Below are positions 3,901 through 22,346 of a stretch of DNA of 64,000 bases, in pieces. The stretch lies in the NCBI RefSeq assembly GCF_000280925.3, contig NZ_CP012109.1:3182501-3246500 (forward strand), given 5' to 3'. The position numbers and the translations under genes were made by a program. The DNA comes from Myxococcus hansupus (lineage in GTDB: Bacteria; Myxococcota; Myxococcia; Myxococcales; Myxococcaceae). Numbering within the stretch: the stretch's first letter is position 1; every line of letters starts with the position of its first letter. The notes under the pieces are model-generated. The model saw only the letters and a list, made by a program, of their open reading frames with translations. It did not search any database and had not been told where the DNA came from.

Positions 3901-5247
3901 ACGATGGAGCGCCCGGACGGCACGGACCTGCGCACGGAGCTGCGCAAGGCCCTGCGCGACGTGGTGCCCGAGTACATGGTGCCCGAGGTCATCGTGGTCC
4001 TCCCGGAGCTGCCGCTGAGCCCCAGCGGGAAGATTGACCGCAAGGCCCTGCCGCACGTGACGTCGGAGGCCGCCACGGGCGTGGCGTTGGCCCGCACCGG
4101 GGCGCTCACGGAGACGGAGCGGCAGCTCCAGGCGCTCTTCAGCGAGCTGTTGGGCCTGAGCGCCGTGGCGCCCACCGACAGCTTCTTCGAGCTGGGCGGA
4201 CACTCGCTCCTGGCCGTCACGCTCATCTCGCGCATCTCCGCGAAGCTGGGGGTGGAGGTTCCGCTCAACGAAGTCTTCGACCGTCCCTCGGTGGAGGCGC
4301 TGGCCCGTTGGATTGAAGAGCACTCGGTGATGGTCACCGCGCTGGTCCGGCAGCTCCCCGCCTGTGTGATCGCGCTGAAGCCGCTGGGCAAGAATCCGCC
4401 GTTGTTCTTGGCGCCGCCCTCGGCGGGCAGCCCCGCCGTCTACGTCACCCTGGCGCGCTACCTGTCCTCGGACCAGCCCGTGTTCGGCTTCCAGATGCCG
4501 GGGGTGATGGATGACCAGCAGCCTCCGGAGACCATCGAGGAGTCGGCCGCGCTGTACGTGGCGGCCATGAGACAGGTCCAGCCGCGCGGGCCCTACCGCA
4601 TCGCGGGCTGGTCCTACGGTGGGCTCGTCGTGTGTGAGATGGCCCGCCAACTGGAGGCGATGGGGGAGCAGGTGGCCTTGTTGGGCCTGATTGACGGCGC
4701 CGCGCTGGACCGGCTCGCCGCGCATGACGCGAATGGTGAAGAGATTCCCGGGGGCTCGCAGATGTTCAAGGCGCTGGGGGAAGCCCCCATGCCGAAGGAC
4801 TACGCGAGCGCCAGGCAGATCGGTGAATGGATGGGTATCAGCCTGCCGGAGTCGCTAGGTGACCTGCTCCGTCGGGACGCGGAAGGACACCATTCCTATC
4901 TCCGGCGTTTCTTGCGCGATACAGCCCTCACCGCGCGGAATTTCCTGGCAACACGGCGCTCCGAACAACTCTATACGTTCACTTCATACAGCGGCACCGC
5001 CACACTTTTCAGGACGGGTCCTGTGACAGTGGGAGGTGACCCGCTTGTCGACAGCGTGAAGACGTTCGCCCTTGCCGGCACGGAAGTGATTCCCGTTCCG
5101 GGTAATCACATGACACTCATCATGGATGAGAGAAATGTCCTCGTGCTTGCAAATGAAATTCAAAAATGTCTGGATAGGGTGCTGGTTTTTCCTGCCCTCG
5201 CTGAGCTGTCTCGGGCGGAAATGCCAGTGCAAGGTTTGACTGCGTAG
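943..5247 (+). CDS. Terminal NRPS module: docking-C-A-PCP-TE
   Basis: A 1434-residue single-module nonribosomal peptide synthetase. Residues 1-60 resemble a TubC-type N-terminal docking domain, which fits receiving a chain from the PKS just upstream. The condensation domain (about 70-500) has HHIAADV at about 203, keeping the catalytic HHxxxD but with Val for the usual Gly. The adenylation domain (about 520-1020) has YTSGSTGRPKG, NEYGPTE, YRTGD and GKIDRKAL. Eye alignment to GrsA gives pocket residues D-G-T-K-V-G-E-V-A-K, closest to Asn/Asp-type codes. The PCP has GGHSLL (Ser about 1088). The C-terminal thioesterase has GWSYGG (Ser about 1224) and GNH near 1389, so this is the release module. 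Base composition falls toward AT in the last 350 bases. Confidence 0.95.
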   Translation: MNLGELVAEMNRRGLEVRVEGDALRLRGPKGAADPELRHALAEHKQALLKLLRDHDEVREEAPIVPVRRDGYAPLSYGQTRLWFLDRLEPGSTAYNLVLALQVEGRLDPSILHRCFVEIVRRHEILRTRYAEHEGAAVQWVDPEPRFGFQVLKEAEVLATAPAGVEAFLRREGDRPFDLATGPVVRVLVIEGGEGGQFIQLCLHHIAADVWAQAVLVREVVTLYGAFASGQPSPLPPLTLQYGDFAVWQRDYLQGEVRQRLVDFWRKKLEGAPPLLELPTDHVRPKVQTNRGGEVRFEVGPRVTSALKALSHSAKTTPFVGMLSAFFVLLHRLTGRDDLVLGANSINRTRTELEPLVGFFVDNLVMRVDLGGAPGFSTVLERVRETVLEAFAHQDLPFDLLVEELRPARSLGHNPLFQVVFAWVRAASESPDGTGVRMRPLEFEATTSRFDLNLFVDDHGDRLVARMVYNRDLFEHSTIQHHMDCFQVLLDGLVNEPQRPVAELPVLPPADRERVLQHWNATGTDASPEVCLHTLIEAQAARNPDAVALVVDDWELTYGELDQLSDRLAAHLQDLDVGPEVVVGVYLERTPELIVSLLAVLKAGGAFLALDADEPTDRLRHIVADARPRVLISTSQRAERLWGMGGFVTVLVDEGYRDVPAATGVRLRRDVLPGQLAYILYTSGSTGRPKGTEITHRSIINYLRWSARAYRLHEGTGSPVIGSVSFDGTLTSLFAPLLAGRALFLVPRGREIDVLTSGDYPEQGFSFIKMTPSHLRAFNGLGKTRQVLGRAHAVVLGGEGLHGVDLTSWREQGVPTRIINEYGPTEASVACCFEELLPDGAPLPERVPIGRPITGMRLYILDRFLQPVPVGVSGELYIGGIGLARGYLRRPDLTAERFIPNPFDTDSTGAGGSRLYRTGDHARYLHDGRIEYLGRQDDQLKIRGHRVEAGEVEAALGRHDDVVQAAVVLRRAPDGAARLVAYVQPQTMERPDGTDLRTELRKALRDVVPEYMVPEVIVVLPELPLSPSGKIDRKALPHVTSEAATGVALARTGALTETERQLQALFSELLGLSAVAPTDSFFELGGHSLLAVTLISRISAKLGVEVPLNEVFDRPSVEALARWIEEHSVMVTALVRQLPACVIALKPLGKNPPLFLAPPSAGSPAVYVTLARYLSSDQPVFGFQMPGVMDDQQPPETIEESAALYVAAMRQVQPRGPYRIAGWSYGGLVVCEMARQLEAMGEQVALLGLIDGAALDRLAAHDANGEEIPGGSQMFKALGEAPMPKDYASARQIGEWMGISLPESLGDLLRRDAEGHHSYLRRFLRDTALTARNFLATRRSEQLYTFTSYSGTATLFRTGPVTVGGDPLVDSVKTFALAGTEVIPVPGNHMTLIMDERNVLVLANEIQKCLDRVLVFPALAELSRAEMPVQGLTA

Positions 5248-5267
5248 CTCCCCAAGGAGGTCCTGCA

Positions 5268-6368
5268 ATGCCACACCGAGTCCTATCGATGGACGGTACT
5301 TCTATTTCTGGCGGTGAAGGGTATGTCACCGCCGGCATGCTCAAATCGCTTCGTGAGAATTTGACCGCGAAAGGGCAAACCCAGTCACTGCTGAACGACG
5401 TCGAGCTGTTCTCGGGCACGTCCGCGGGGGCGTTCAACGCGGCGTTCTTCGCCAGCTACGAGAACCCGGACGATGCCTTCCCCAAGATTCTCGACTTCTG
5501 GGGCGAAGTCGTCTCGATGAACCGCAAGGCCGTGGGGCTGGCCCGGACCGCGCTGGCGCTGACGGGCAACAGCGCGCTGCTCGATTCGAGCTACATGCGT
5601 GACTTCTTCTGCAGCTACTTCGGCGCCACGCTGCGGCTGGGCGACTTGAAGCGCAAGGTCGCGCTGCCGTCCTTCCAGTTGGATGGTCAGCGCAAGGCGC
5701 TCCGGACGTGGAAGGCCAAGGTGTTCCACAACACCGGCCACGACAACGATCCGGATCTCAACGAGCTGGTGGTGGACGTGCTGATGCGGAGCGGTTCGCC
5801 GCCGCTGTCCTATCCCATCTACCAGGGGATGCGGCACGAGGGGAGCGGCTACGTGGATGGCGGCATCTTCGCCAACAACCCGTCGCTGGTGGCCCTGGCG
5901 CAGATCGTCAACAACATCACCCGGAAGAGCCGCGCGGAGAAGGTCGAGACGATGGAGACCGAGCCGCCCGACCTCACGAACATCCTGATGATGTCGGTGG
6001 GCAACGGCTGCACGTCCTCCTATCTCACGCCGCGCTTCTGTAACGGCGTCGCCAACTGGGGCTTCTCCAACTGGCTGCTCGACTTCCATGACCCCATGGT
6101 CCTGGTGAAGATGATGCTCGAGGCCGGCTCGGACGCGGCGGACCACCAGTGCCGGATGATTCTGCGGAAGAAGTACTTCCGGCTGAATCCCGTGGTGGAG
6201 CACTCGCTCTCCGCGGGCAACACCAAGCAGGTCGAGTCCACCGTCCAGCAGCTCGTGAGCACGCAGTCCACGCTCATGCAGCTCAACCGGGCGCAGGCGT
6301 GGCTCGGCAAGTCCGGCTGGATGGAGAAGTCCGCGCCCAGCCAGACGCAGCCGACCCCGGCGACCTAA
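5268..6368 (+). CDS. Patatin-like phospholipase/acylhydrolase
   Basis: 366 residues with the patatin fold signature. The nucleophile elbow is GTSAG (Ser52), and the catalytic Asp lies in VDGGIFANNPSL (Asp197), giving a Ser-Asp dyad. The usual glycine-rich oxyanion loop is altered to MDGTSISGGEG near the N-terminus. An AAGGAGG ribosome site lies about 9 bases before the ATG. Family members hydrolyse lipid acyl esters. It sits 20 bp after the NRPS stop and before the ArsA-like ATPase, inside the biosynthetic operon, so a role in product processing, lipid supply or self-protection is possible but unproven. The first 130 bases use unusually AT-rich codons compared with the rest. Confidence 0.9.
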   Translation: MPHRVLSMDGTSISGGEGYVTAGMLKSLRENLTAKGQTQSLLNDVELFSGTSAGAFNAAFFASYENPDDAFPKILDFWGEVVSMNRKAVGLARTALALTGNSALLDSSYMRDFFCSYFGATLRLGDLKRKVALPSFQLDGQRKALRTWKAKVFHNTGHDNDPDLNELVVDVLMRSGSPPLSYPIYQGMRHEGSGYVDGGIFANNPSLVALAQIVNNITRKSRAEKVETMETEPPDLTNILMMSVGNGCTSSYLTPRFCNGVANWGFSNWLLDFHDPMVLVKMMLEAGSDAADHQCRMILRKKYFRLNPVVEHSLSAGNTKQVESTVQQLVSTQSTLMQLNRAQAWLGKSGWMEKSAPSQTQPTPAT

Positions 6369-11100: not shown

Positions 11101-13654
11101 GCTCTTCACGGGGACAGGAGGGACGGTCGACGAGGTCACGTTCTCGCAGGCCCTCTTCCTACCCGAAGCAGGTGAGCGCCGGGTCCACTTGCTGTACTCG
11201 CCGGAAGGCGAACGCGGCGGGCGCTTCGAAATCCACAGCCAGGAAGAGCGCACCGGTGACGGGGAGTCCGCGTGGATTCTCCATGCGCACGGTAAGGTGT
11301 CCGCCGCTGGGGCCACGGACGGCTCCCGCGTGGACCTCGCGCGCTTGAAGAAGCAGGTGTCGCGGGAAGTCCCGGTGGCGGGCTACTACGAGAAGCTGAG
11401 CCACGCCGGGCTCGCCTATGGTCCGAGCTTCCGTGGCATCCAGCAGCTCTGGCGCGGTGAAAATGAGGTCCTGGGCCGGTTGGCCCTCACTGGCAGCGCG
11501 GCGGACGAGGCGGAGCAGTACACGCTCCAGCCCGCGCTCCTGGATGCCTGCTTCCAGATGGTCGGGGCCGTGCTCGACGAGGAGGGCGATGCGGCCTACC
11601 TGCCCGTGGGCGTCGGCAAGGTCCAGGTGCTCCGGAGCGGCTTGAAGGACGTCTGGGCCCACGCCACGTTGTCCCGGTGCGATGACGCGAAGGGCCCTGG
11701 CTTCACGTGTGATCTCCAGCTCCTGACGGCGGACGGAGACCTCGTGGCGACGGTGGAGCGGTTGTCACTCCGGCGCATCACCCGCGAGAGCCTCCTGGGC
11801 GCGAAGGGCAAGCGCTTCCAGGGCTGGCTCTATGAGCTGGAGTGGCAGGAGCGGCGGCTGGAGGCCGCGCCGTCAGTGGAGTCCTCCGCGCCGACGACGC
11901 AGTGCCTCATCCTGTCCGACGTGGCGGGCGTGGGAGCGCGGCTCGCCGAAAAGCTCAAGGGGCGCGGATGGCATGTCGTGACGGTGCGCGCGGACGCGCC
12001 GGGCGGGCGTGAGTCCGCGCAGGCGCTCCTCGCCCGGTTGCCGTCGGGCGCGGCGCAAGGGCCCTTGCGCGTGGTCGACTTGTGGAGCCTCGACGGTGAT
12101 GGCCATGACGTCCCGGCGCATGCCTTGGGACACGCCTCACGCGTGCTCGCGCTGGCCCAGGCGCTGGTCGAGGCCAAGGGGGCGGACACGGCCCTCTGGC
12201 TGGTGACGCGTGGCGCGCAGTCGACGTCGGAGAAAGAGCGCATCACCCACCTCGGAAGCTCGGTGTTGTGGGGGCTGGGCAAGTCCATCACCCGCGAGCA
12301 CCCGGACCTCCACTGTCGCCGCGTGGACCTGGATGCGGGCGCGCCCGGGCACGAAGTCGAGCAGCTCCAGGCCGAGCTGCTCGGCGCCGGCGCCGAGGAC
12401 GAAATCGCGCTGCGTGGCACGTCCCGCCGCGTGGCCCGGCTGGTGCGGAGCCGTCGGGCGCGGAGCGCGGGGAGCGACGTCACGTTGTCGCCCGACGCGA
12501 GCTACCTGGTGACGGGTGGCCTCGGCGGCCTGGGGCTCGTCGTCGCGGAGCGGCTGGTGGAGCGGGGGGCCCGTCACCTCGTGTTGATGGGCCGTCGCGC
12601 GCCATCCCCGGAGGCTCGAGCCCGGCTCGACGTGCTGGAGCAGCGCGGGGTGACGCTCCAGGTCCTGCAATGCGACGTGGCGGCGGCCTCGGAGCTGGAG
12701 CGCGCCGTCTCGGAGCTCTCCGGACGGATGCCGCCCATCCGGGGCGTGGTCCACTCCGCGGGCGTCATCGATGATGGCCTCTTCGTGCAGATGACGCCGG
12801 AGCGGCTGGCGAAGGCCTTCGCGCCCAAGGTCTCCGGTGGTTGGAACCTTCACCAGGTGTTCCAGGGCACGGCGCTGGACTTCTTCGTCGTGTTCTCCTC
12901 GGCCTCGTCCCTCATCGGCTCGGCGGGACAGGCCAACTACGTGGCCGCCAATGCCTTCCTCGACGGGCTCGCGCGTCACCGCCAGGCACAGGGCCTGCCC
13001 GGACTGAGCCTCAACTGGGGCGCCTGGGCCGACGTGGGCGCGGCGGCGGAGGACTCGATTCGCCGTCGCATGGAGCAGTTGGGCTTCGGCGTGATTCCGC
13101 TGGAAGACGGGCTTCAGGCCTTTGAACAGGCCCTGGGGCTCAAGGGACAGCTCGGCGTCCTTCCGGTGGACTGGGCGGTGCTCGGACGCCGAGGTGCTTC
13201 GCCGCTCTTCGAGGCCTTCATCGAGAAGCCGGGCCCGGCCGCGAGCGAGGGCATTCGTCAGAAGCTGGAGAAGCTGCCGCCCAAGGAGCGCCGAGGCGCG
13301 TTGCGCGCGCACGTGGGCACGCTGGTGAATGGCGTGCTGGGGCGTCCGCCGACGGAGCCGCTCGACCCGAACCAGGGCTTCTTCGAGTTCGGCATGGACT
13401 CGCTGATGTCCGTGGAGCTGCGCAACGTCCTGCAGCGCAGCCTGGGCACCTCGCTGCACGCGACGGTGGCCTTCGACAACCCCACCGTCAACGGGCTGGT
13501 GGACTACCTGGCGGCGGAGGTGTTGGGCCTGCGGGAGGAGGAGGCCACGCCCGTGGAGGAGGCGCCCCAGGACACCGAGCTGGAGGCGCTCCTGGCCGAC
13601 GTGGACAGCCTGGACGACGATGCCGTCCAGGCCATGCTCCGGCGCGGCCGCTGA
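8123..13654 (+). CDS. Type I PKS module KS-AT-DH-KR-ACP
   Basis: 1843 residues from a GTG start (an in-frame ATG at 8147 is an alternative). A short helical docking segment precedes the KS, which has TACSS (Cys211), EAHGTGT (His346) and KTNLGH. The AT has GHSVGE (Ser about 665) and HAFH near 765, the pattern of malonyl-CoA-specific domains. The DH is complete: HGVYGQVLMP near 968 and DACFQ near 1141. The KR has GGLGGLG near 1463, VIDDG, then SSAS and NYVAANAF. The ACP has GMDSLM near 1759, followed by an acidic C-terminal tail likely used for docking. There is no ER, so the expected product is an alpha,beta-unsaturated unit. It follows the release module in gene order, so it probably works earlier in the assembly line. 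Confidence 0.95.
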   Translation: MSEENASSMESMTPLQRAALAIKTLRARVDGLERARSEPIAIIGMGCRFPGGANDPATYWDLLRAGVDAVGPVPPDRWDAEAYYAADPDAVWKMIVREGGFLSQPITGFDSEFFGLSPREANYVDPQQRLMLEVSWEALEDAGIAPGSLAGSDTGVYVGFLSSDYGRVPFKAVQTRDLPYMGTGNELSFSAGRVSYVLGLQGPSMVVATACSSALVSAHLACQALRQGECSLALAGGVNVIIRPDSNIVLSKMRALAPDGRSKTFDASANGYGRGEGCGVLVLKRLSDAQRDKDRILAVIRGSAVNHDGLSGGLTVPNGPAQEKLLRKALESAGLSPSDVSYIEAHGTGTPLGDPIELRALDAVLRHGRSPEAPLLVGSAKTNLGHLESAAGAAGMIKVVLSMRQGEIPPHLHFRKPNPAVDWDQLNLAIPTQVTPWPAGEKPRVAGISGFGLSGVNSHVLIAEAPPVQPRTPELTPRPHHVLALSARTPQALGELAQRYAQALGQPELTAQPLEDICFTANTGRESFRHRLAVLGTSHDALRTQLAAFATGENPPSVLTGKAEAAPKLAFLFTGQGAQWLGMGEELFKTEPAFRQALLRCDEVLRPLMGQSLIDLLYPADRDAQARARLDETGFTQPALFALEYALAQVWMQWGVRPDFVMGHSVGEFVAACVAGVFTLEEGLDLIATRARLMQSLPAGGAMAAVSAERAEVEALLGRYDGQVSIAAFNGPRNIVISGREAAVKDCVAELTRQGKRGTMLRVSHAFHSALMDPILDAFARAVEKVRFQAPTLPLISNLTGREAGKEILTPRYWVQHLREPVMFARGMQTLEQAGVKAFLEVGPKPTLVTMGQSCITQGNPLWAGSLRPERSDWQQLLEGLGALYVAGVPVNWRGLDQGRERYKVALPVYPFQRRSHWMELTGDSWDYPGASTAPTPLHPLLGHLHASPSQTRQFESSVGAAKPAFLKDHGVYGQVLMPGAAYVEMALAAGAALFTGTGGTVDEVTFSQALFLPEAGERRVHLLYSPEGERGGRFEIHSQEERTGDGESAWILHAHGKVSAAGATDGSRVDLARLKKQVSREVPVAGYYEKLSHAGLAYGPSFRGIQQLWRGENEVLGRLALTGSAADEAEQYTLQPALLDACFQMVGAVLDEEGDAAYLPVGVGKVQVLRSGLKDVWAHATLSRCDDAKGPGFTCDLQLLTADGDLVATVERLSLRRITRESLLGAKGKRFQGWLYELEWQERRLEAAPSVESSAPTTQCLILSDVAGVGARLAEKLKGRGWHVVTVRADAPGGRESAQALLARLPSGAAQGPLRVVDLWSLDGDGHDVPAHALGHASRVLALAQALVEAKGADTALWLVTRGAQSTSEKERITHLGSSVLWGLGKSITREHPDLHCRRVDLDAGAPGHEVEQLQAELLGAGAEDEIALRGTSRRVARLVRSRRARSAGSDVTLSPDASYLVTGGLGGLGLVVAERLVERGARHLVLMGRRAPSPEARARLDVLEQRGVTLQVLQCDVAAASELERAVSELSGRMPPIRGVVHSAGVIDDGLFVQMTPERLAKAFAPKVSGGWNLHQVFQGTALDFFVVFSSASSLIGSAGQANYVAANAFLDGLARHRQAQGLPGLSLNWGAWADVGAAAEDSIRRRMEQLGFGVIPLEDGLQAFEQALGLKGQLGVLPVDWAVLGRRGASPLFEAFIEKPGPAASEGIRQKLEKLPPKERRGALRAHVGTLVNGVLGRPPTEPLDPNQGFFEFGMDSLMSVELRNVLQRSLGTSLHATVAFDNPTVNGLVDYLAAEVLGLREEEATPVEEAPQDTELEALLADVDSLDDDAVQAMLRRGR

Positions 13655-16032: not shown

Positions 16033-17433
16033 CTACTTCCGGCAGCCGCCGCGCAGCTCCCGGGCCGCCGCCGCGACCGTCTCGATGCTCAGCGCGACCC
16101 AGTCCGCGCTGTCACGGGCGAACTGCTCCGCGAGCTCCGCGTCCACCGCGGGGTTTCGCCGGGAGCCCGGGCGGAGCTGCTGGAGGAAGTTGTCGCGGGC
16201 CGCGATGGAGTGGCGCGCGGTGCGCTCCGCCAACTCGCGGCCGCTGTTGAAGACCTCCTTCAGGCCCGGGTCGCGCAGGTTGGACGGCGAGCCCGCGGCG
16301 GACTCGCGGCAGCTCCGGGCGAAGTCCGCGGCCGTGCTCTTCGCCGGCGTGGCCAGGAGCAGGCGCTCCAGCGCGCTGGCCTTCGGGCCGGGCTGGTCGA
16401 AGGACTCGCGGTCGCCTTCCGCCTCGCAGGCGCCCATGACCTCCAGCGCGACGGCCGGGGCCAGGGCCGCGGGGCAGCCTCCGAGCTGCTGCAACTCACG
16501 ACGGCTGGCGGCCACGTCCACGGGCGGCAGCGGCAGCGCGGAGATGAGGGAGAAGAAGGAGCGCAGCACCGGCAGCTTCACCGTCTCCGAGCCTGGGATG
16601 GCCTTCAGGGCCGTCTGGATGGCGCTCCAGGGCTTGGTCTCCTTCGCCCCATAGATTTTGAGGTAGCCCTGCTGCAGGAAGCTCAGCCAGCCCTCCGCGA
16701 ACGCCGTGGCGATCTTCCGGCTCTCCGGCGAGGTGAGGCGTGAGGCCTCGTCGTGGACGGCCAGGAAGTACTCCAGGCAGATGGCCTTGCGCATCCGGAC
16801 GATGCGCTCGCCCGCGGTGGAAGGGAGCGAGGCGGGAGGCGTCATGGTCAGCCCCAGCAGCTCCAGCTCCTCGGCGCTCAACCAGAAGCGGCCCAGGTCG
16901 AGGTCCTCCTGCAGGTCCACGAGGTCGTCGAACATCTGGAGGCCCACGGCGGACAGCTTCACGATGCGGCGCACCGTGGCCTCGTCCACGTCGGAAAGCT
17001 GGAGGCGCTGCACCATGTACGCGCCAGGGCCGGCCTTCAGGTACCAGAGGGAGAACAGCTCCTTGACGGTGAGCGGGCGGCCCAGCGCCAGGTACTCGCG
17101 CTCCGCGTAGAAGGAGCGGATCTGCTCGATGAGCCGACGGCGGCCGTCGATGAGCGTGGGGGCCGCGGCCATGAACTCGCGGAGCACGCGAATGGCGTCC
17201 AGGTCCTCGGTGAAGGCGTTGGGGTCATCCAGAATCTGGAACCCGTGCGCGTCCACGAGGTCGTCGATGCGGCGGATGCCGAACCAGAAGTAGGTCCACA
17301 GCCGTCCTTCCGACTCCGTGGCGACGATTTGGGGCAGGTACCCCAACACGTCGACCTCCAGGAGCCAGCGCCGCATCGCGGCGAGGGACGTCTCGCTCAG
17401 TGGATTCCCATGCAGCTCGACGGCGCTTTTCAT
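16033..17433 (-). CDS. Squalene/phytoene-synthase-like protein with extra C-terminal region
   Basis: 466 residues from the ATG at 17433, chosen because CCAGGAG lies 7 bases upstream. Two Asp-rich motifs are spaced as in head-to-head prenyl synthases: RRIDDLVD (Asp57-Asp61) and FDDLVDLQED (169-177), followed by GRFWLSAEELELLGL, which parallels the GR-YLP-EEL segment of phytoene synthases. Family members join two prenyl diphosphates. The protein is longer than the usual 280-350 residues, with about 150 C-terminal residues I do not recognise. It is convergent with the P450 (13 bp apart) and could supply a terpenoid to the same product. A hairpin separates it from the peptide operon upstream. Exact substrate unknown. 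Confidence 0.7.
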   Translation of the reverse strand: MKSAVELHGNPLSETSLAAMRRWLLEVDVLGYLPQIVATESEGRLWTYFWFGIRRIDDLVDAHGFQILDDPNAFTEDLDAIRVLREFMAAAPTLIDGRRRLIEQIRSFYAEREYLALGRPLTVKELFSLWYLKAGPGAYMVQRLQLSDVDEATVRRIVKLSAVGLQMFDDLVDLQEDLDLGRFWLSAEELELLGLTMTPPASLPSTAGERIVRMRKAICLEYFLAVHDEASRLTSPESRKIATAFAEGWLSFLQQGYLKIYGAKETKPWSAIQTALKAIPGSETVKLPVLRSFFSLISALPLPPVDVAASRRELQQLGGCPAALAPAVALEVMGACEAEGDRESFDQPGPKASALERLLLATPAKSTAADFARSCRESAAGSPSNLRDPGLKEVFNSGRELAERTARHSIAARDNFLQQLRPGSRRNPAVDAELAEQFARDSADWVALSIETVAAAARELRGGCRK

Positions 17434-17539
17434 GTCACGGCTCCTGGGTGGATGTAGGAGGGTGACAGGATAGTGAGCGCGGCTGCCTGCTCCAGAATGC
17501 CTTGCATCGGTTTCGTCAGGCACACTGCGCAGGTTGGGC

Positions 17540-17571
17540 TCCGGGCCGCTGACGCCTCCCAGCGGCCCGGA
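17540..17571 (-). terminator. Hairpin terminator after the peptide gene
   Basis: TCCGGGCCGCT and AGCGGCCCGGA form a perfect 11-bp stem with a 10-base loop, starting 9 bases after the stop of the 50-residue peptide gene. There is no T tract, as is common in such GC-rich genomes. It probably ends the operon that starts near 22346 and insulates the prenyl-synthase-like gene. Confidence 0.65.
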
Positions 17572-17580
17572 AGACTGCTG

Positions 17581-17733
17581 TCAGTAGGGGGAGCAGTAGA
17601 CCTTGATGCAGGTCCTCGCGGCGGCCTTCGTTGCCGAGGGCGAGGTGGACTTCTCCATCTCGCGCATCATCTCCACGAGCTTCTGCTTGGCTTGCTTGGA
17701 AGCCTGGGGCGCCTTCGACTTCGCTTTCGTCAT
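17581..17733 (-). CDS. 50-residue candidate RiPP precursor peptide
   Basis: The ATG at 17733 has a near-ideal ribosome site, GGAGGAGA, about 7 bases upstream, which fixes the start. The product has a Lys/Ala-rich N-terminus and a predicted helix containing EMMREMEKS. It ends in a compact tail, RTCIKVYCSPY, with two Cys five residues apart, and codon use fits the host. A leader-like helix plus a short Cys/Tyr/Pro tail, directly after two oxygenase-like genes, is the form expected of a modified-peptide precursor, with the tail as core. No precise cleavage site (such as GG) is visible. It lies 64 bp after the JmjC-type gene and just before a terminator. It could instead be a small regulatory protein. 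Confidence 0.72.
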   Translation of the reverse strand: MTKAKSKAPQASKQAKQKLVEMMREMEKSTSPSATKAAARTCIKVYCSPY

Positions 17734-17797
17734 GATGACTCTCCTCCGTCGGTGTGGGCGAACTGCGGGCGTAGCGTGGGCTTTGATGACGGATGCG

Positions 17798-19126
17798 TCA
17801 AGGGGTGAGAGTGATTGAGCGGAATGTATGAAGTTTTTCCAGGAGGCTGCGCATTCCGTCACGCGTCGCGGCAATGATATCCGCGTCGTGTGTCGCGGTG
17901 TGTCGTGCTCGAAAGGGCTGTATCAGCTCACCCACGGACACCGCCCGTCCTGTGTTCAATCGTTGGAACAACGTTTCGACTGTTTTTCCTCCGCCGATTC
18001 CTCGCAGCGCGTGGCCATTGACGGCACAGAGCCACTGCCGGGCCCCGTCGCGTTCGAAGAGCACGGGGAAGCGTGAGTCCACCCGGATGCGCTGCGAATC
18101 GCGCAGCCGCCGGGTGCGAGCAGGGGCTGGAACGGGTTCGAAGCCTCCGGCGGAGAGCCGTTTCATCCAGGTGGCCTGGATGTGCCGCTGGGCTTCCTGT
18201 GGCGCGCTGACGTCATGAAACGCCTCCACCGCCTCGGCGAGCGCGCGAGGCAACCGCGCGGACAGGACGCCCTTGTTCTCGAACGCGCCTCGGTCCAAGG
18301 GCGAGGCCTTCACGCGGGCCAGCCGCGTCTGCTTCCACTGCTGCTCCGCCAGGGAGGTCTCGTCGAGCATCCCGCGCAGCAGGTCGTCGACGGAGAAGAG
18401 GGGCGGGTGTCCGCTGATGGGGATGCCGACATTCACGCTGCTGGCCACGCCCGTGCCTGTGTTTTCGCCCACGTGGTAGTAGGTGGAGGGCCAGTAGAGG
18501 ATGTCTCCGGGCTCGACCTCGGCCACGAAGGACGACTTCAGATAGGGCTGATAGTCCAGGATGGTGGAGACGTCTTCACGCCAGGGGCGCCGGGCCCAGA
18601 AGCGCATGCGCTTGCGGCCCCGGAGCGCGAAGAGGAAGGTCGTGAACCGGTCCATGTGGACGCCTACGGGGCTGCTTTCGTAGGTGCCATGAAACAGGGT
18701 GGTGATGCCGCCTGATTGGGGAAGTCCCACGCGCCGCCACAGCTCGGAGAAGAAGTCGCGCTCGCGGGACCACAGCAGGTGGCTGAAGCTGTGCAGGCTG
18801 GAGACGATGAGGGCATAGCGCTGCTCGCCCAGCCGGGCCGCGAGGCGGGCGTCATAGCCATCCAGGGAGCCATCCTTCGCCTGGGGCAGCCACTCCCTGG
18901 CGAAGAGCTGCCGGAGCCGGTCCACCGTGAAGGTGATCTCCGGGCGGGAGTTCGAGGCGTAGCTCCGTGACAGGTAGTGCCGGGTGGCGCTGGCGGCGGC
19001 CTCGAAGGTGTCCTCGGCCGTGAAGGGCGAGGCCCCCGTTCCCTTGAAGAGCACCGGGCGCTGGTTCCAATAGCGCGCGACGAAGGTGTCCCAGTCGAAG
19101 CGATGCGTGATTTCGAGCGCGGGCAT
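17798..19126 (-). CDS. JmjC/cupin-type Fe(II)/2-oxoglutarate oxygenase-like protein
   Basis: 442 residues. The centre has the double-stranded beta-helix pattern of JmjC/cupin_4 oxygenases: GVHMDRFTTFLFALRG supplies His157 and Asp159 of the HxD metal pair, and PGDILYWPSTYYHVGEN supplies the distal His218. Related enzymes hydroxylate amino acid side chains in proteins and peptides. The C-terminal 200 residues are helical and resemble the dimer and winged-helix regions of ribosomal oxygenases. The start has GGAGG 9 bases upstream inside the previous gene, with only a 3-base gap, so the two are cotranscribed. The peptide gene downstream is the obvious candidate substrate, by position only. Confidence 0.82.
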   Translation of the reverse strand: MPALEITHRFDWDTFVARYWNQRPVLFKGTGASPFTAEDTFEAAASATRHYLSRSYASNSRPEITFTVDRLRQLFAREWLPQAKDGSLDGYDARLAARLGEQRYALIVSSLHSFSHLLWSRERDFFSELWRRVGLPQSGGITTLFHGTYESSPVGVHMDRFTTFLFALRGRKRMRFWARRPWREDVSTILDYQPYLKSSFVAEVEPGDILYWPSTYYHVGENTGTGVASSVNVGIPISGHPPLFSVDDLLRGMLDETSLAEQQWKQTRLARVKASPLDRGAFENKGVLSARLPRALAEAVEAFHDVSAPQEAQRHIQATWMKRLSAGGFEPVPAPARTRRLRDSQRIRVDSRFPVLFERDGARQWLCAVNGHALRGIGGGKTVETLFQRLNTGRAVSVGELIQPFRARHTATHDADIIAATRDGMRSLLEKLHTFRSITLTP

Positions 19127-19129
19127 GTG

Positions 19130-20374
19130 TCAGACCTCCGTCCCGGCCACGGCCTGGATTCCGCGCAGCCGCAGCAGGGAGCCCAGCAGGACGCGGACCT
19201 CCTCGCGCTGCGCGGCGGTGCGCCCCAGGCCGCAGAGCGCGTCGACGCGGCAGGGGGCGCCGGTGTCCAGGGCGTCGAACAGCCGCCGCGCCAGGGCCTC
19301 GCCGGGCCCCGGAAACGCGTGGCCATTCACGGCCCATATCCACAGGCCCGAAGGGTCCTTCATCCGGAGGATGTCCGTGGAGGGCGTGCGCCGCACGTGC
19401 AGCGTGTCCTTCAACGCGGTCGCCGTATCCGGTGGGGGCACGGGCTCGAGCGCGCAGGCGCTGACACGCCGGGCCCAGGTGATGCGGAGCATTTGCTGAA
19501 GCTCGGCCTCCCGGGTCAGCGTGTGGAGCGTGTCCGCGGTCTGCTCCAGTCGCTCCACGGTGGCCCGTCGGCCCGCGCGGGGCCGGCGCCAGGGATAGGA
19601 CAGGTAGGGCACCGTCTCGTCGTGTTCGGCCTCGCGTTCGAGCATCGACACGAGCACGCGCTTCACCTCATCCGTGGGCCGGCTGCCCTTGACGGGAATC
19701 CAGACGTGGAGCGCCATGCAGTCACCCGGCGCCTCTTCGAGATGCCAGCGCTGGGACGGGATGTAGAGGCACTCTCCGGCCCGGGCTTCCAGCGTCGTGG
19801 CCTCGTGGAGATGCTGGTCGAAGTCCACCGTCTCGTTCGCGGGCTGGCCCCAGAGCTTCTTCCAGAGCCGGACGCGAAGCTGGCCCTGGAGCACCAGGGT
19901 GAAGCGCGAATGGTGGGGCCGCTTCGCCAATCCCAAGGGGCCCCGGCTGAAGCGGCCCAGCACCAGCTCCGTGGTGGCGGGCAGCACGGGGACACCCACG
20001 CGCTCCATCAACCCCCGGAGGAAGCCGCGCACGGCGCCCCAGAGGCTGAAGTCGAACATGAAGGGCTGTTCAACCTGGATTTGGAAGGACGCGCCTTCGA
20101 GCCCTCCGGAGGCACGGTCCAGGTAGCCACCGAGGGTGGCGTCGTCGTGACCAGGGAGGAGGGGGCCCGGTGACGCCAGCCGGGCGTGTCCCACGTAGAA
20201 GCGGACGTCGGGCAGGGCGCGAAACCGCGTGCCGTGTCGGAAGGGCTCGCAGGTGGCCGCGGTGCGCTGAAAGACCTCTCCCGCGGAGAGGACGGGGGCC
20301 GGCAGCTTCATTCGCGCCGGTGTCTTCTCCCAGTGCCGCTCCACGAAACGTTCCCAGTCGAATCCATGACGCAC
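19130..20374 (-). CDS. Second JmjC/cupin-type protein, altered metal site
   Basis: 414 residues from a GTG with CCGGAG just upstream. It is a divergent relative of the next gene: both begin with FDW..FV...W, and both have a C-terminal stretch ending in WxxAVNGHA or similar. At the metal site PHHSRFTLVLQG aligns with GVHMDRFTTFLF of its neighbour, so His154 is kept but the Asp ligand is Ser156. The distal His is His211 in PSQRWHLEE. Loss of the acidic ligand means it is either inactive (a substrate-binding partner) or uses an open iron site as in iron-dependent halogenases. Which one cannot be told from sequence. Confidence 0.75.
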   Translation of the reverse strand: MRHGFDWERFVERHWEKTPARMKLPAPVLSAGEVFQRTAATCEPFRHGTRFRALPDVRFYVGHARLASPGPLLPGHDDATLGGYLDRASGGLEGASFQIQVEQPFMFDFSLWGAVRGFLRGLMERVGVPVLPATTELVLGRFSRGPLGLAKRPHHSRFTLVLQGQLRVRLWKKLWGQPANETVDFDQHLHEATTLEARAGECLYIPSQRWHLEEAPGDCMALHVWIPVKGSRPTDEVKRVLVSMLEREAEHDETVPYLSYPWRRPRAGRRATVERLEQTADTLHTLTREAELQQMLRITWARRVSACALEPVPPPDTATALKDTLHVRRTPSTDILRMKDPSGLWIWAVNGHAFPGPGEALARRLFDALDTGAPCRVDALCGLGRTAAQREEVRVLLGSLLRLRGIQAVAGTEV

Positions 20375-20385
20375 GGTGTCTCCGG

Positions 20386-21006
20386 TCAGGTGGGAAGGAA
20401 GTGCCGGCGGATGCGCCGGGCATACACCTCCAGCGGGGGAAGGTTCAGCGCTTCGCGCCTGACGTCAACGGTGTCTGGCCTCTCGATGGGATACGGAACG
20501 AACTCGCCCTTCACCTTGCGGAACTTCGTTCCATAGAGCTGCTTTTTTCCCTCACGCATGCGCACCACGTCCGTGAGGTAGGCCACCTGCTCGATGGGGA
20601 CGTCGCCGCGCTTCGCCGCGTCGCGCAACAGTCTCAAGCACCGTCGCTGGAAGGTGATGGCGCATTCGGCATGCTGGACCAGTCGCCATGCGGCGGCCGC
20701 CGCGGAGGCCCCCACCAGCTTGTGGCCCGGCCAGCCATGCTCCGCGATGACGCCTCGCAGCCAGTCAATGCCGGTGGTCGTCAGTGCGTCGAGCTGGCGT
20801 TCGAGGGACCGGTCCTTGAACGCCGTCTGCACCCAGGCCGCGCGGAGCTGACTGTCGATGCGGTCCAATCGCAGCAACTGCGCGCGCACGTCGCGATTCA
20901 CCTTCGCCGAGGCGGACCGGTCCGCGGCACGCTTGCGCCGCGGCGTTGGACGTTGGAGGAGACTCATGGCGGCACAGCCTAACAGTCCGGCGGTGCCGCC
21001 AGACAT
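20386..21006 (-). CDS. DUF6624 family protein
   Basis: 206 residues if it begins at the ATG (21006) that overlaps the serpin stop as TGATG; an internal ATG at 20967 is the alternative. The core matches the DUF6624 pattern: HGWPGHKLVGASAAAAAWRL, VQHAECAITFQRRCL, AYLTD, and KKQLYGTKFRK. The function of the family is unknown; members are cytoplasmic and often found alone. The first 40 residues are Arg-rich. It is 11 bp from the next gene and appears to be part of the same transcript as the oxygenase-like genes. Confidence 0.78.
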   Translation of the reverse strand: MSGGTAGLLGCAAMSLLQRPTPRRKRAADRSASAKVNRDVRAQLLRLDRIDSQLRAAWVQTAFKDRSLERQLDALTTTGIDWLRGVIAEHGWPGHKLVGASAAAAAWRLVQHAECAITFQRRCLRLLRDAAKRGDVPIEQVAYLTDVVRMREGKKQLYGTKFRKVKGEFVPYPIERPDTVDVRREALNLPPLEVYARRIRRHFLPT

Positions 21007-22346
21007 CACGGCTTCACGTAGCGCCCGAGGAACAGGAGCTGCCGCGTGGGCACATGCTCGATGGTGAAGATGAAGGGCCGGTTCACGTGGACCGTCTCGG
21101 GGTCCGACGCGGGCGCCGTGCCCACCGCCGTGGCGGCGCTGGCTTCCGTGCCGCGCTCGTTCACGGACACGTAGGCCCTGTGGCTCACGGAGGACAGCAG
21201 CAACCGCTCGGAAGAGAGCCCCGAGAAGTCCGCGTTGGACGTGAAGGCATCCGTCATCCCCAGGGACTTCAGCACCGGGACGAGGTCGGGCGTGGAGTCA
21301 ATCTTGAAACGGGGCAGCCGGATGTCGAGGTGCCGCGACTCAAGTCCGGCGCGGAGCTGCGTGAGGAACCCTGGAGACAGCCGCGCCTCGACCTCCGCGA
21401 AGCGGCCTTGCTCCGGGACGACAATCAGCATGCGGTACTCGTCGTGGCGATAACCCAGGGTGACGGCTTCGAAGCCGTCGCCTCGCAGGTACTGCCCCTT
21501 GCCGCCGCGCATCGTCGGCACGGAGTGGCTCGTTCCGTCCAAGGCCGTGAAGGGCTGGTCCTGGGTGCCATTCGCCAGGAAGGGCGTTGACCAGGACCCG
21601 TGGAAGAAGAGCACGTTGACGAGCATGAGACGCGTGGCGTTCGTCACGGTGCCTTCATTCAGGAGGTTCTGGATGCGGCCACCGGTCCGGGTCTCGATCC
21701 ACTGATTGATTTCCTCGCGGGCACGGGAGGTCTGGCCCTGGAAGTCCATCAGGTGCACGCCGCTGTCGTAGTCGTGGGCGAGCGTGTCCAGGAAGGCGGG
21801 ATGGAGGGGCGTGCCCTGCTGCGCCCAGGCCGAGTTCATGGAGTGGAAGGCCGGCGCGGTGCCGGAGCCGGAGGTCGGCGCGGAGGCGTCGGTGATGACG
21901 AAGTCCGCCAGCTCCCGCATCGCCAGGTGATGCCGCTCTTGAGGGAGCGTGAAGTTCAGCGCCTGGGCCATCTGGGCCTCGGTTTGTCCCCGGGCGCCCG
22001 CGTAGAGCATGGAGAAGGCGGACGAGACGCTGTAGGGCGAGAAGAAGAGGTTCTCCGTTCCGGAGATGCTGCGCTGATAGAGGGCGAAGGCGAGCTGGGT
22101 GTTGCCGCTGGCGACTTCCTGGAACTCCAGCGCGGTGGCGACGCGCTCCGGGTCGCGCGGCGTCGTGGAGCGAGCGACCTCGCCCGGGGCTTCCACGTGG
22201 GGAAACTCCTCCGGTGGCAGGCAGGCGGCGAAGTTCCCGAGCGGGACCGAACGGCAAGGCGTGGGATCGGACGGGCCGCTTTCACAGCCGGAGAGGAGCA
22301 GGACAGCGGCGCAGCGGGAGAGGATGCCAATGCGGGGGATGGTCAT
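21006..22346 (-). CDS. Serpin, predicted lipoprotein
   Basis: 446 residues. The N-terminus is a lipoprotein signal with lipobox LLLSGC, so it is likely anchored in the envelope. The rest is a full serpin: NLFFSPYSVSSAFSMLYAGA, NVLFFHGSW, and the reactive-centre hinge GTEASAATAV, then RPFIFTI and FLGRYVKP. Counting from the hinge, P1-P1' falls at Ala-Ser in TAPAS, which points to an elastase- or subtilisin-like target. The hinge is small-residue rich, as in inhibitory serpins. Its stop overlaps the DUF6624 start, so it may be the first gene of the operon that leads to the 50-residue peptide. Confidence 0.92.
   Translation of the reverse strand: MTIPRIGILSRCAAVLLLSGCESGPSDPTPCRSVPLGNFAACLPPEEFPHVEAPGEVARSTTPRDPERVATALEFQEVASGNTQLAFALYQRSISGTENLFFSPYSVSSAFSMLYAGARGQTEAQMAQALNFTLPQERHHLAMRELADFVITDASAPTSGSGTAPAFHSMNSAWAQQGTPLHPAFLDTLAHDYDSGVHLMDFQGQTSRAREEINQWIETRTGGRIQNLLNEGTVTNATRLMLVNVLFFHGSWSTPFLANGTQDQPFTALDGTSHSVPTMRGGKGQYLRGDGFEAVTLGYRHDEYRMLIVVPEQGRFAEVEARLSPGFLTQLRAGLESRHLDIRLPRFKIDSTPDLVPVLKSLGMTDAFTSNADFSGLSSERLLLSSVSHRAYVSVNERGTEASAATAVGTAPASDPETVHVNRPFIFTIEHVPTRQLLFLGRYVKP

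Follow-up and report, generated by a model that had tools for sequence, protein, structure and literature searches.

The genome of Myxococcus hansupus carries a gene for a 50-residue peptide directly behind two genes for JmjC-type proteins, and the question raised by this locus is whether the peptide is a substrate that the two proteins modify. The locus lies in a stretch of 64,000 nucleotides (hereafter the window; positions 3,182,501-3,246,500 of a 9.49-Mb single-contig genome), and the genome was grouped with 26 others as one genus. A reading made from the sequence alone had proposed a minus-strand operon for a ribosomally synthesized and post-translationally modified peptide (RiPP), and all five of its genes lie where it had placed them: those for a serpin, a DUF6624 protein, the two JmjC-type proteins, denoted here as J1 (19130-20374) and J2 (17798-19126), and the peptide (17581-17733). 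The gap between J1 and J2 is 3 nt and that between J2 and the peptide gene is 64 nt. The strong ribosome-binding site that had been noted is a GGAGGAG (17741-17747, minus strand) seven bases before the ATG of the peptide gene, and 3' of the gene lies the expected terminator-like hairpin (17539-17572, minus strand), with a 14-bp stem, a folding energy of -36.2 kcal/mol (z -2.95) and no T run.

To follow the peptide across genomes, we searched the 27 genomes of the genus with its single sequence, and 14 of them gave a match at E<=1. Among the 27 places listed, 16 were at E<0.01 and 11 were weak (E 0.2 or worse), and a J2 homologue adjoins each of the 16. A peptide profile (A1) searched against 195 Myxococcota genomes matched 19 places at E<=2.7e-19; these belong to 12 genomes from four genera. 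Considering that A1 was built from these same 19 peptides, the matches arise by construction, and the information lies in there being no further copy at that level. The 21 weaker places listed (E 0.00385 or worse) are all within open reading frames (ORFs) of at least 183 codons, the best of them inside an 851-codon ORF; with weaker places included, the tally is 30 genomes at E<=0.05. It was J2, and not the peptide search, that led to the three members outside the genus. When the same 195 genomes were searched with a J2 profile (A4) built from 13 orthologues, 19 places scored 755-829 bits and the next scored 204 bits, the lower-scoring places being those of J1 and of JmjC proteins further removed from J2. 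Any match at E<=1e-40 was present in 14 genomes and an orthologue in 12. The 19 J2 orthologues and the 19 peptides fall in the same 12 genomes and at the same loci, each of which also has J1.

A short candidate precursor gene is in this way linked to genes for candidate modifying enzymes at 19 of 19 loci, as in RiPP systems, and it is very likely that J1, J2 and the peptide are a RiPP-type set of enzymes and substrate. The peptide has homologues with the same tail beside JmjC gene pairs in other genomes, and none of the 19 J2 orthologues among the 195 genomes lacks a peptide; neither of the outcomes that the sequence-only reading had named as fatal to it was seen. JmjC genes conserved without the peptide were looked for, and the peptide-less homologues are distant proteins that are not orthologues of J2. 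The pairwise identities of peptide and J2 are correlated (r 0.92), a correlation that shared ancestry alone could give. Genes in the relatives' stretches were called with a crude G+C-position script; the peptide of locus L069 was found through reading frames and the DUF6624 gene of L068 through tblastn. A scan of genome contigs returned 11 candidate stretches and only one relative, L067. Its contig, BNCN01000004.1, is labelled Comamonas sp. KCTC 72670; the label looks wrong, and the genome was grouped with Myxococcota.

The 19 loci have three layouts. Seven genomes have two loci each, one like that of the window (type A) and one of type B, and five genomes have a single locus of a third layout, type C. 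When the 19 peptides are aligned, they combine a conserved leader with a conserved, modifiable core-like part, as RiPP precursors do. The leader is lysine-rich with a common SKQ....KL block, and the residues invariant in 19 of 19 peptides are K7, S12, K13, Q14, K18, L19 and K28, together with C42, Y46 and C47 in the tail. All tails follow the pattern [S/T]-C-(3 or 4 residues)-Y-C, so the part named earlier as the candidate core, residues 41-50 in the window (TCIKVYCSPY; 17584-17613, minus strand), is indeed the conserved core-like part. Three residues precede the Tyr-Cys pair in type A and in two type-C loci and four in all others, and the tails end in x-Pro-Tyr/Phe in type A and otherwise in V or MV. 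Between the two cysteines every peptide has a basic residue, one each and two in a single locus. An F-R-F core of the biphenomycin type was not found in any of the 19. Among the seven type-A peptide genes, the non-synonymous rate (dN) is below the synonymous rate (dS) in 20 of 21 pairs; in the one left over, dS is 0 and the two sequences are separated by one non-synonymous substitution. Because 19 loci carry the peptide and dN<dS holds in 20 of 21 type-A pairs, the gene is no chance ORF.

J2 resembles the ribosomal oxygenases in sequence and fold. It matches JmjC_2 (PF08007) with E 3.7e-8, above the family cut-off, and its HxD...H metal triad (H157, D159 and H218) is shared by all 19 orthologues. 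In a sequence-profile search of solved structures, the nearest relatives among the best 60 of 109 matches were the L16 arginine hydroxylase YcfD, followed by YxbC, a cupin 4 protein, MINA53 and NO66; beta-lactamases near E 0.01 in the same set appear chance-like. The model of J2 (pLDDT 83.4, pTM 0.84, from 33 sequences) aligned end-to-end with YcfD (Z 16.2, 310 residues, root-mean-square deviation (rmsd) 5.6, 18% identity) and comparably with NO66 (Z 16.0, rmsd 6.1). Ribosomal oxygenases were also the top Foldseek matches, although their TM-scores were no higher than about 0.4-0.5. The C-terminus of the model has four strands (346-377) followed by three helices (380-434), a winged-helix-like domain, and ribosomal oxygenases have a winged helix at that end too. 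In terms of the family match, the triad and the full-length fold with its C-terminal winged helix, J2 has the features of a JmjC_2 ribosomal oxygenase.

J1 is 28% identical to J2 and matches PF08007 with E 0.02, below the cut-off. In a joint alignment with J2, the triad positions of J1 are occupied by K/R, P/E/A/G/L and H/Q. Realigning J1 by a nearby HH[S/A] motif places His in the first position (Asn in L068) and still no Asp in the second. In total, no J1 has Asp at the second ligand (19 of 19), and 12 of 19 have Gln in place of the distal His. Since J1 is without the triad residues, it is probably not an active 2-oxoglutarate oxygenase, and judged by its sequence it is probably a catalytically inactive partner of J2, a pseudoenzyme. 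Its model is weak (pLDDT 69, pTM 0.57) and was used solely for the order of elements. The two JmjC-type genes had been read as a pair of oxygenase-like proteins; this holds for J2, and a reading with two active oxygenases was rejected, the metal triad being absent from J1 at every one of the 19 loci.

Two further families accompany the three constant genes, as counted by tblastn of the fetched stretches over the 19 loci. DUF6624 adjoins J1 in 12 of 19 loci (type A 7/7, type C 5/5, type B 0/7), and a DUF4135 homologue lies 3' of the peptide gene in 12 of 19 (type B 7/7, type C 5/5, with no match in the seven type-A loci). From these counts, each locus has at least one of the two. The order in all five type-C loci is DUF6624-J1-J2-peptide-DUF4135, which may be the ancestral layout. 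In the window, the DUF6624 gene (20386-21009, minus strand; PF20329 E 9.2e-18) ends 11 nt before J1; its start codon is uncertain, with an ATG at 20968 possible. DUF6624 occurs at high frequency in four graspetide groups and was called a possible undiscovered class of biosynthetic enzyme, according to the excerpt of PMC13097080 used here. As the seven type-B loci have no DUF6624, the protein is no absolute requirement, unless the type-A copy in each of these genomes works for the two loci alike.

The DUF4135 proteins of type-B and type-C loci are about 554-647 aa long as called. The two scanned by Pfam (PF13575 E 5.4e-18 and 5.5e-19) had no cyclase domain, and in one protein scanned with NCBIfam a LanM match was far below the cut-off. 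A class II lanthipeptide locus would have a LanM with dehydratase and cyclase beside the precursor; here there is DUF4135 only, in 12 loci. A PDB sequence search with the DUF4135 alignment gave nothing up to E 1. The LanM motifs YKPR, D..N, D-x-E and R-x5-[S/T] serve phosphorylation and elimination, and nine aligned DUF4135 proteins keep them in line with six full LanMs of the window's genome, which were the reference in place of a characterised LanM. These six full-length LanM-type synthetases (G000:C1, L117-L122) are present in that genome besides its stand-alone type-B DUF4135 gene. Where a locus has DUF4135, we think it likely that the protein acts on the same peptide.

RiPP-type clusters of the same bacterial family also contain JmjC proteins, at about 24-35% identity to J2. 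We fetched 19 stretches around distant and other J2 relatives, a minority of which were classified by their surroundings. L071:3490-18951 is a hybrid RiPP-like cluster with three JmjC-type genes, LanB, YcaO, TfuA and an MvdD-like ATP-grasp protein, and has a 55-aa peptide with a V-S-G-G motif (11685-11852, plus strand). In L073:1442-7951 a JmjC homologue lies near radical S-adenosylmethionine (SAM) genes, a SPASM protein and an 83-aa ORF, with an rSAM_ocin_1 RiPP maturase match above the cut-off. A small peptide in L075 (16455-16607, minus strand) matches the ammosamide/lymphostin RiPP leader NF033737, has JmjC-like genes nearby as well as a protein with a weak match to Rieske-type oxygenases, and has a C-terminal block in common with a small peptide in L076 (14806-14985, minus strand). 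The presence of DUF4135 in 12 of 19 loci, that of DUF6624 in 12 of 19 and the distant JmjC homologues in RiPP clusters fit a RiPP pathway.

Based on these observations, we propose that the 50-residue peptide serves as a precursor, in which a lysine-rich leader is followed by the core [S/T]-C-(3 or 4 residues)-Y-C at the C-terminus. J2 would be an oxygenase dependent on Fe(II) and 2-oxoglutarate, built like the ribosomal oxygenases, and would form a heterodimer with its catalytically dead paralogue J1; the C-terminal winged-helix-like domains of the two may bind the leader. That J2 oxidises the tail of the peptide is likely. The oxidation is somewhat more probably than otherwise a hydroxylation of a core side chain, for which the Arg/Lys between the cysteines would be the likeliest site and Tyr the second choice. 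In the 12 loci other than type A, DUF4135 would then phosphorylate, and perhaps dehydrate, the Ser/Thr before the first Cys, and after dehydration the second Cys might form a thioether ring unaided by a cyclase. The type-A loci may have their DUF4135 provided by the type-B locus present in each of the seven type-A genomes; alternatively, their product may undergo oxidation alone and possibly have a Cys-Cys disulfide. DUF6624 would be an accessory maturation protein, and cleavage and export would complete the pathway. As a whole, the explanation by a RiPP operon, with hydroxylation by the J2-J1 pair and steps by DUF4135 and DUF6624, is moderately favoured.

Several observations weigh against this explanation or parts of it. 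The type-A loci, including the window's own, are without DUF4135. Of the nine aligned DUF4135 proteins only that of L070 retains His in the LanM D-L-H motif, the other eight having a different residue there; the same His is missing from one of the six full LanMs. Phospeptin is made by a single LanM-type domain that phosphorylates only, according to the excerpt of PMC9259500 used here, and the existence of such a domain makes dehydration by DUF4135 uncertain. The position of the Arg/Lys is not fixed, being +2 from the first Cys in 17 of 19 peptides and +3 in two. For the C-terminal domains we used the definition of RiPP recognition elements (RREs) in the excerpt of PMC12710340; six J2/J1 C-terminal segments gave no Pfam RRE or PqqD match (E up to 5), and the six isolated domains gave one weak match to a phage protein. 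Strong matches to the module are confined to a single bacterial family, and in the genus itself the module is missing from 18 of 27 genomes. Neither a protease nor a transporter was identified next to the genes, where most neighbours were compared only with the proteins of this locus.

The nearest precedent that we found for such an enzyme on a RiPP, in the excerpts of PMC12707348 and PMC12257519, is given by BipG and PbsQ of biphenomycin-type pathways, which hydroxylate ornithine (Orn), a basic residue. In these systems (BipG, PbsQ and BpmG), as proposed here, a JmjC-type or cupin-like oxygenase acts on a RiPP precursor. They differ in that a multinuclear non-heme iron-dependent oxidative enzyme (MNIO), an arginase and a B12 radical SAM enzyme are used on an F-R-F core, and the same excerpts have no mention of a J1-like inactive paralogue, DUF6624 or DUF4135. 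Our Pfam scans covered ten window proteins and ten proteins of relatives, and none of these is an MNIO, an arginase or a B12 radical SAM enzyme. The part of PMC12710340 that we drew on describes fusions between JmjC (PF08007) proteins and RRE domains, with bacterial relatives in RiPP-like contexts. The ribosomal oxygenases (YcfD/RoxA, NO66, MINA53; PF08007) share with J2 the fold over its whole length and the HxD...H triad; here, in contrast, the gene for the substrate is linked, a heteromeric pair with an inactive paralogue would be formed, and identity is only about 11-18%.

As with phospeptin (EmbM, PMC9259500, in excerpt) and LanM, the DUF4135 neighbour is a domain resembling the LanM dehydratase; it is present in 12 of 19 loci, and no cyclase was recognised in it. 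The phospeptin enzyme has mutated key residues of the dehydration site according to that source, whereas R-x5-[S/T] is kept in DUF4135 here; moreover, the JmjC pair is added, and the domain is absent from the window's locus. The excerpted part of PMC13097080 offers two likenesses, DUF6624 being frequent beside the RiPP precursor in graspetide groups and corallotide involving a 2-oxoglutarate oxygenase with a helper protein. The graspetides differ in that our Pfam scans, which covered part of the neighbours, found no ATP-grasp ligase here. Dehydrazoles (CcaM, PMC10676384, likewise in excerpt) provide another case of an unusual DUF4135 enzyme in a RiPP pathway. The gene set and tail of the present locus were not found described in the parts of the open-licence PubMed Central literature that we consulted.

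Considering that the closest relatives of J2 in sequence and fold are ribosomal-protein hydroxylases and that the leader is lysine-rich, the peptide could be a small basic cellular protein that binds ribosomes or nucleic acids, hydroxylated in place by J2 and J1 as a housekeeping-style ribosomal-oxygenase pair and giving no secreted product. We regard this as very unlikely, for presence is patchy (12 of 195 genomes), the tail ends vary, DUF4135 and DUF6624 are neighbours, seven genomes have two paralogous loci, and in genome G025 J2 was lost together with the peptide. That genome has a decayed 3' piece of J2 (L136:7742-7960; 80% over 197 nt compared with L137) before an intact squalene/phytoene-synthase-like (SQS-like) gene, and about 172 nt comprising nearly the whole peptide gene are deleted. 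The same decayed copy, together with the type-A loci without DUF4135, would suit a lanthipeptide-like pathway with peripheral JmjC tailoring, in which the window's locus is a relic that has lost its dehydratase and now makes no product. Yet J1, J2 and the peptide are open in all seven type-A loci, the peptide genes show the dN<dS pattern described above with the one other pair at dS 0, and the constant part is J1-J2-peptide rather than DUF4135, which makes a relic highly improbable.

An alternative closer to the proposed pathway keeps the RiPP operon and changes the chemistry. Some 2-oxoglutarate enzymes make cross-links or other oxidations, and J2 could act in this manner on the C-(3 or 4)-Y-C tail, for instance between Tyr and Cys or Cys and Cys, with no hydroxylation. 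It would explain why Cys, Tyr and Cys are invariant rather than a single hydroxylation site, and a linked inactive partner such as J1 would seem unusual for a plain hydroxylase. The strongest solved relatives of J2 (E<=3e-8, among the best 60 of 109 matches), on the other hand, are named hydroxylase or demethylase, except a cupin 4 family protein and YxbC, the latter also being filed as a putative asparaginyl hydroxylase. The JmjC/cupin-like RiPP enzymes BipG and PbsQ are Orn hydroxylases as well, in the excerpts cited above. Cross-linking or another oxidation in place of hydroxylation appears unlikely, and hydroxylation within a RiPP operon is the chemistry that we prefer.

Other genes near the locus do not belong to the module. 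The serpin (21006-22346, minus strand; PF00079 E 6e-100) overlaps the DUF6624 gene by 4 nt, provided the GTG start is used, and had been counted in the operon. Among 21 stretches, a match to it was present only in the window and in L135 of genome G012, which has no module; the other 18 loci have no match, and the serpin was rejected as a member. On the other side of the peptide gene, window:8573-17433 holds an SQS-like protein (16033-17433, minus strand), a cytochrome P450, a thioesterase, an acyl carrier protein (ACP) and a polyketide synthase (PKS)-like gene. The SQS-like gene occurs in 9 of the 27 genus genomes, with the thioesterase, ACP and PKS genes in all nine stretches (PKS domains by Pfam in L033 only). 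Two of the nine, G012 and G025, have kept this block while J2 and the peptide are gone or broken, and have no J2 orthologue or peptide; the four genes were consequently rejected as members. In G012 the match starts inside the hairpin, and in the type-A relative L137 a similar inverted repeat lies at the stretch matching the hairpin of the window. The P450 was also rejected, being 95% identical in L034 and absent from the five other type-A loci. P450 relatives of 32-35% identity are near the L069 and L070 loci; in the type-C locus L069 one about 35% identical to that of the window (4152-5351, plus strand) lies directly before DUF6624.

Taken all together, the RiPP interpretation of the sequence-only reading is partly supported: its linkage, conserved tail and RiPP-type neighbours stand, and the second active oxygenase and the serpin fall away. 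The chances are balanced that these loci represent a new myxobacterial RiPP class, in which a heterodimer of a ribosomal-oxygenase-like JmjC protein and its dead paralogue acts on an [S/T]-C-(3 or 4)-Y-C core, at first together with DUF6624 and with a LanM domain lacking the cyclase. The module constitutes a minimal and directly testable set of enzyme and substrate, with peptide, active oxygenase and inactive partner one-to-one in 19 loci, and it gives DUF6624 a second setting, beside a different kind of precursor than that of the graspetides. If the proposal is true, it would suggest a single peptide-binding architecture common to ribosomal-protein hydroxylases and RiPP oxygenases, and a role for DUF6624 as a general maturation factor of RiPPs.

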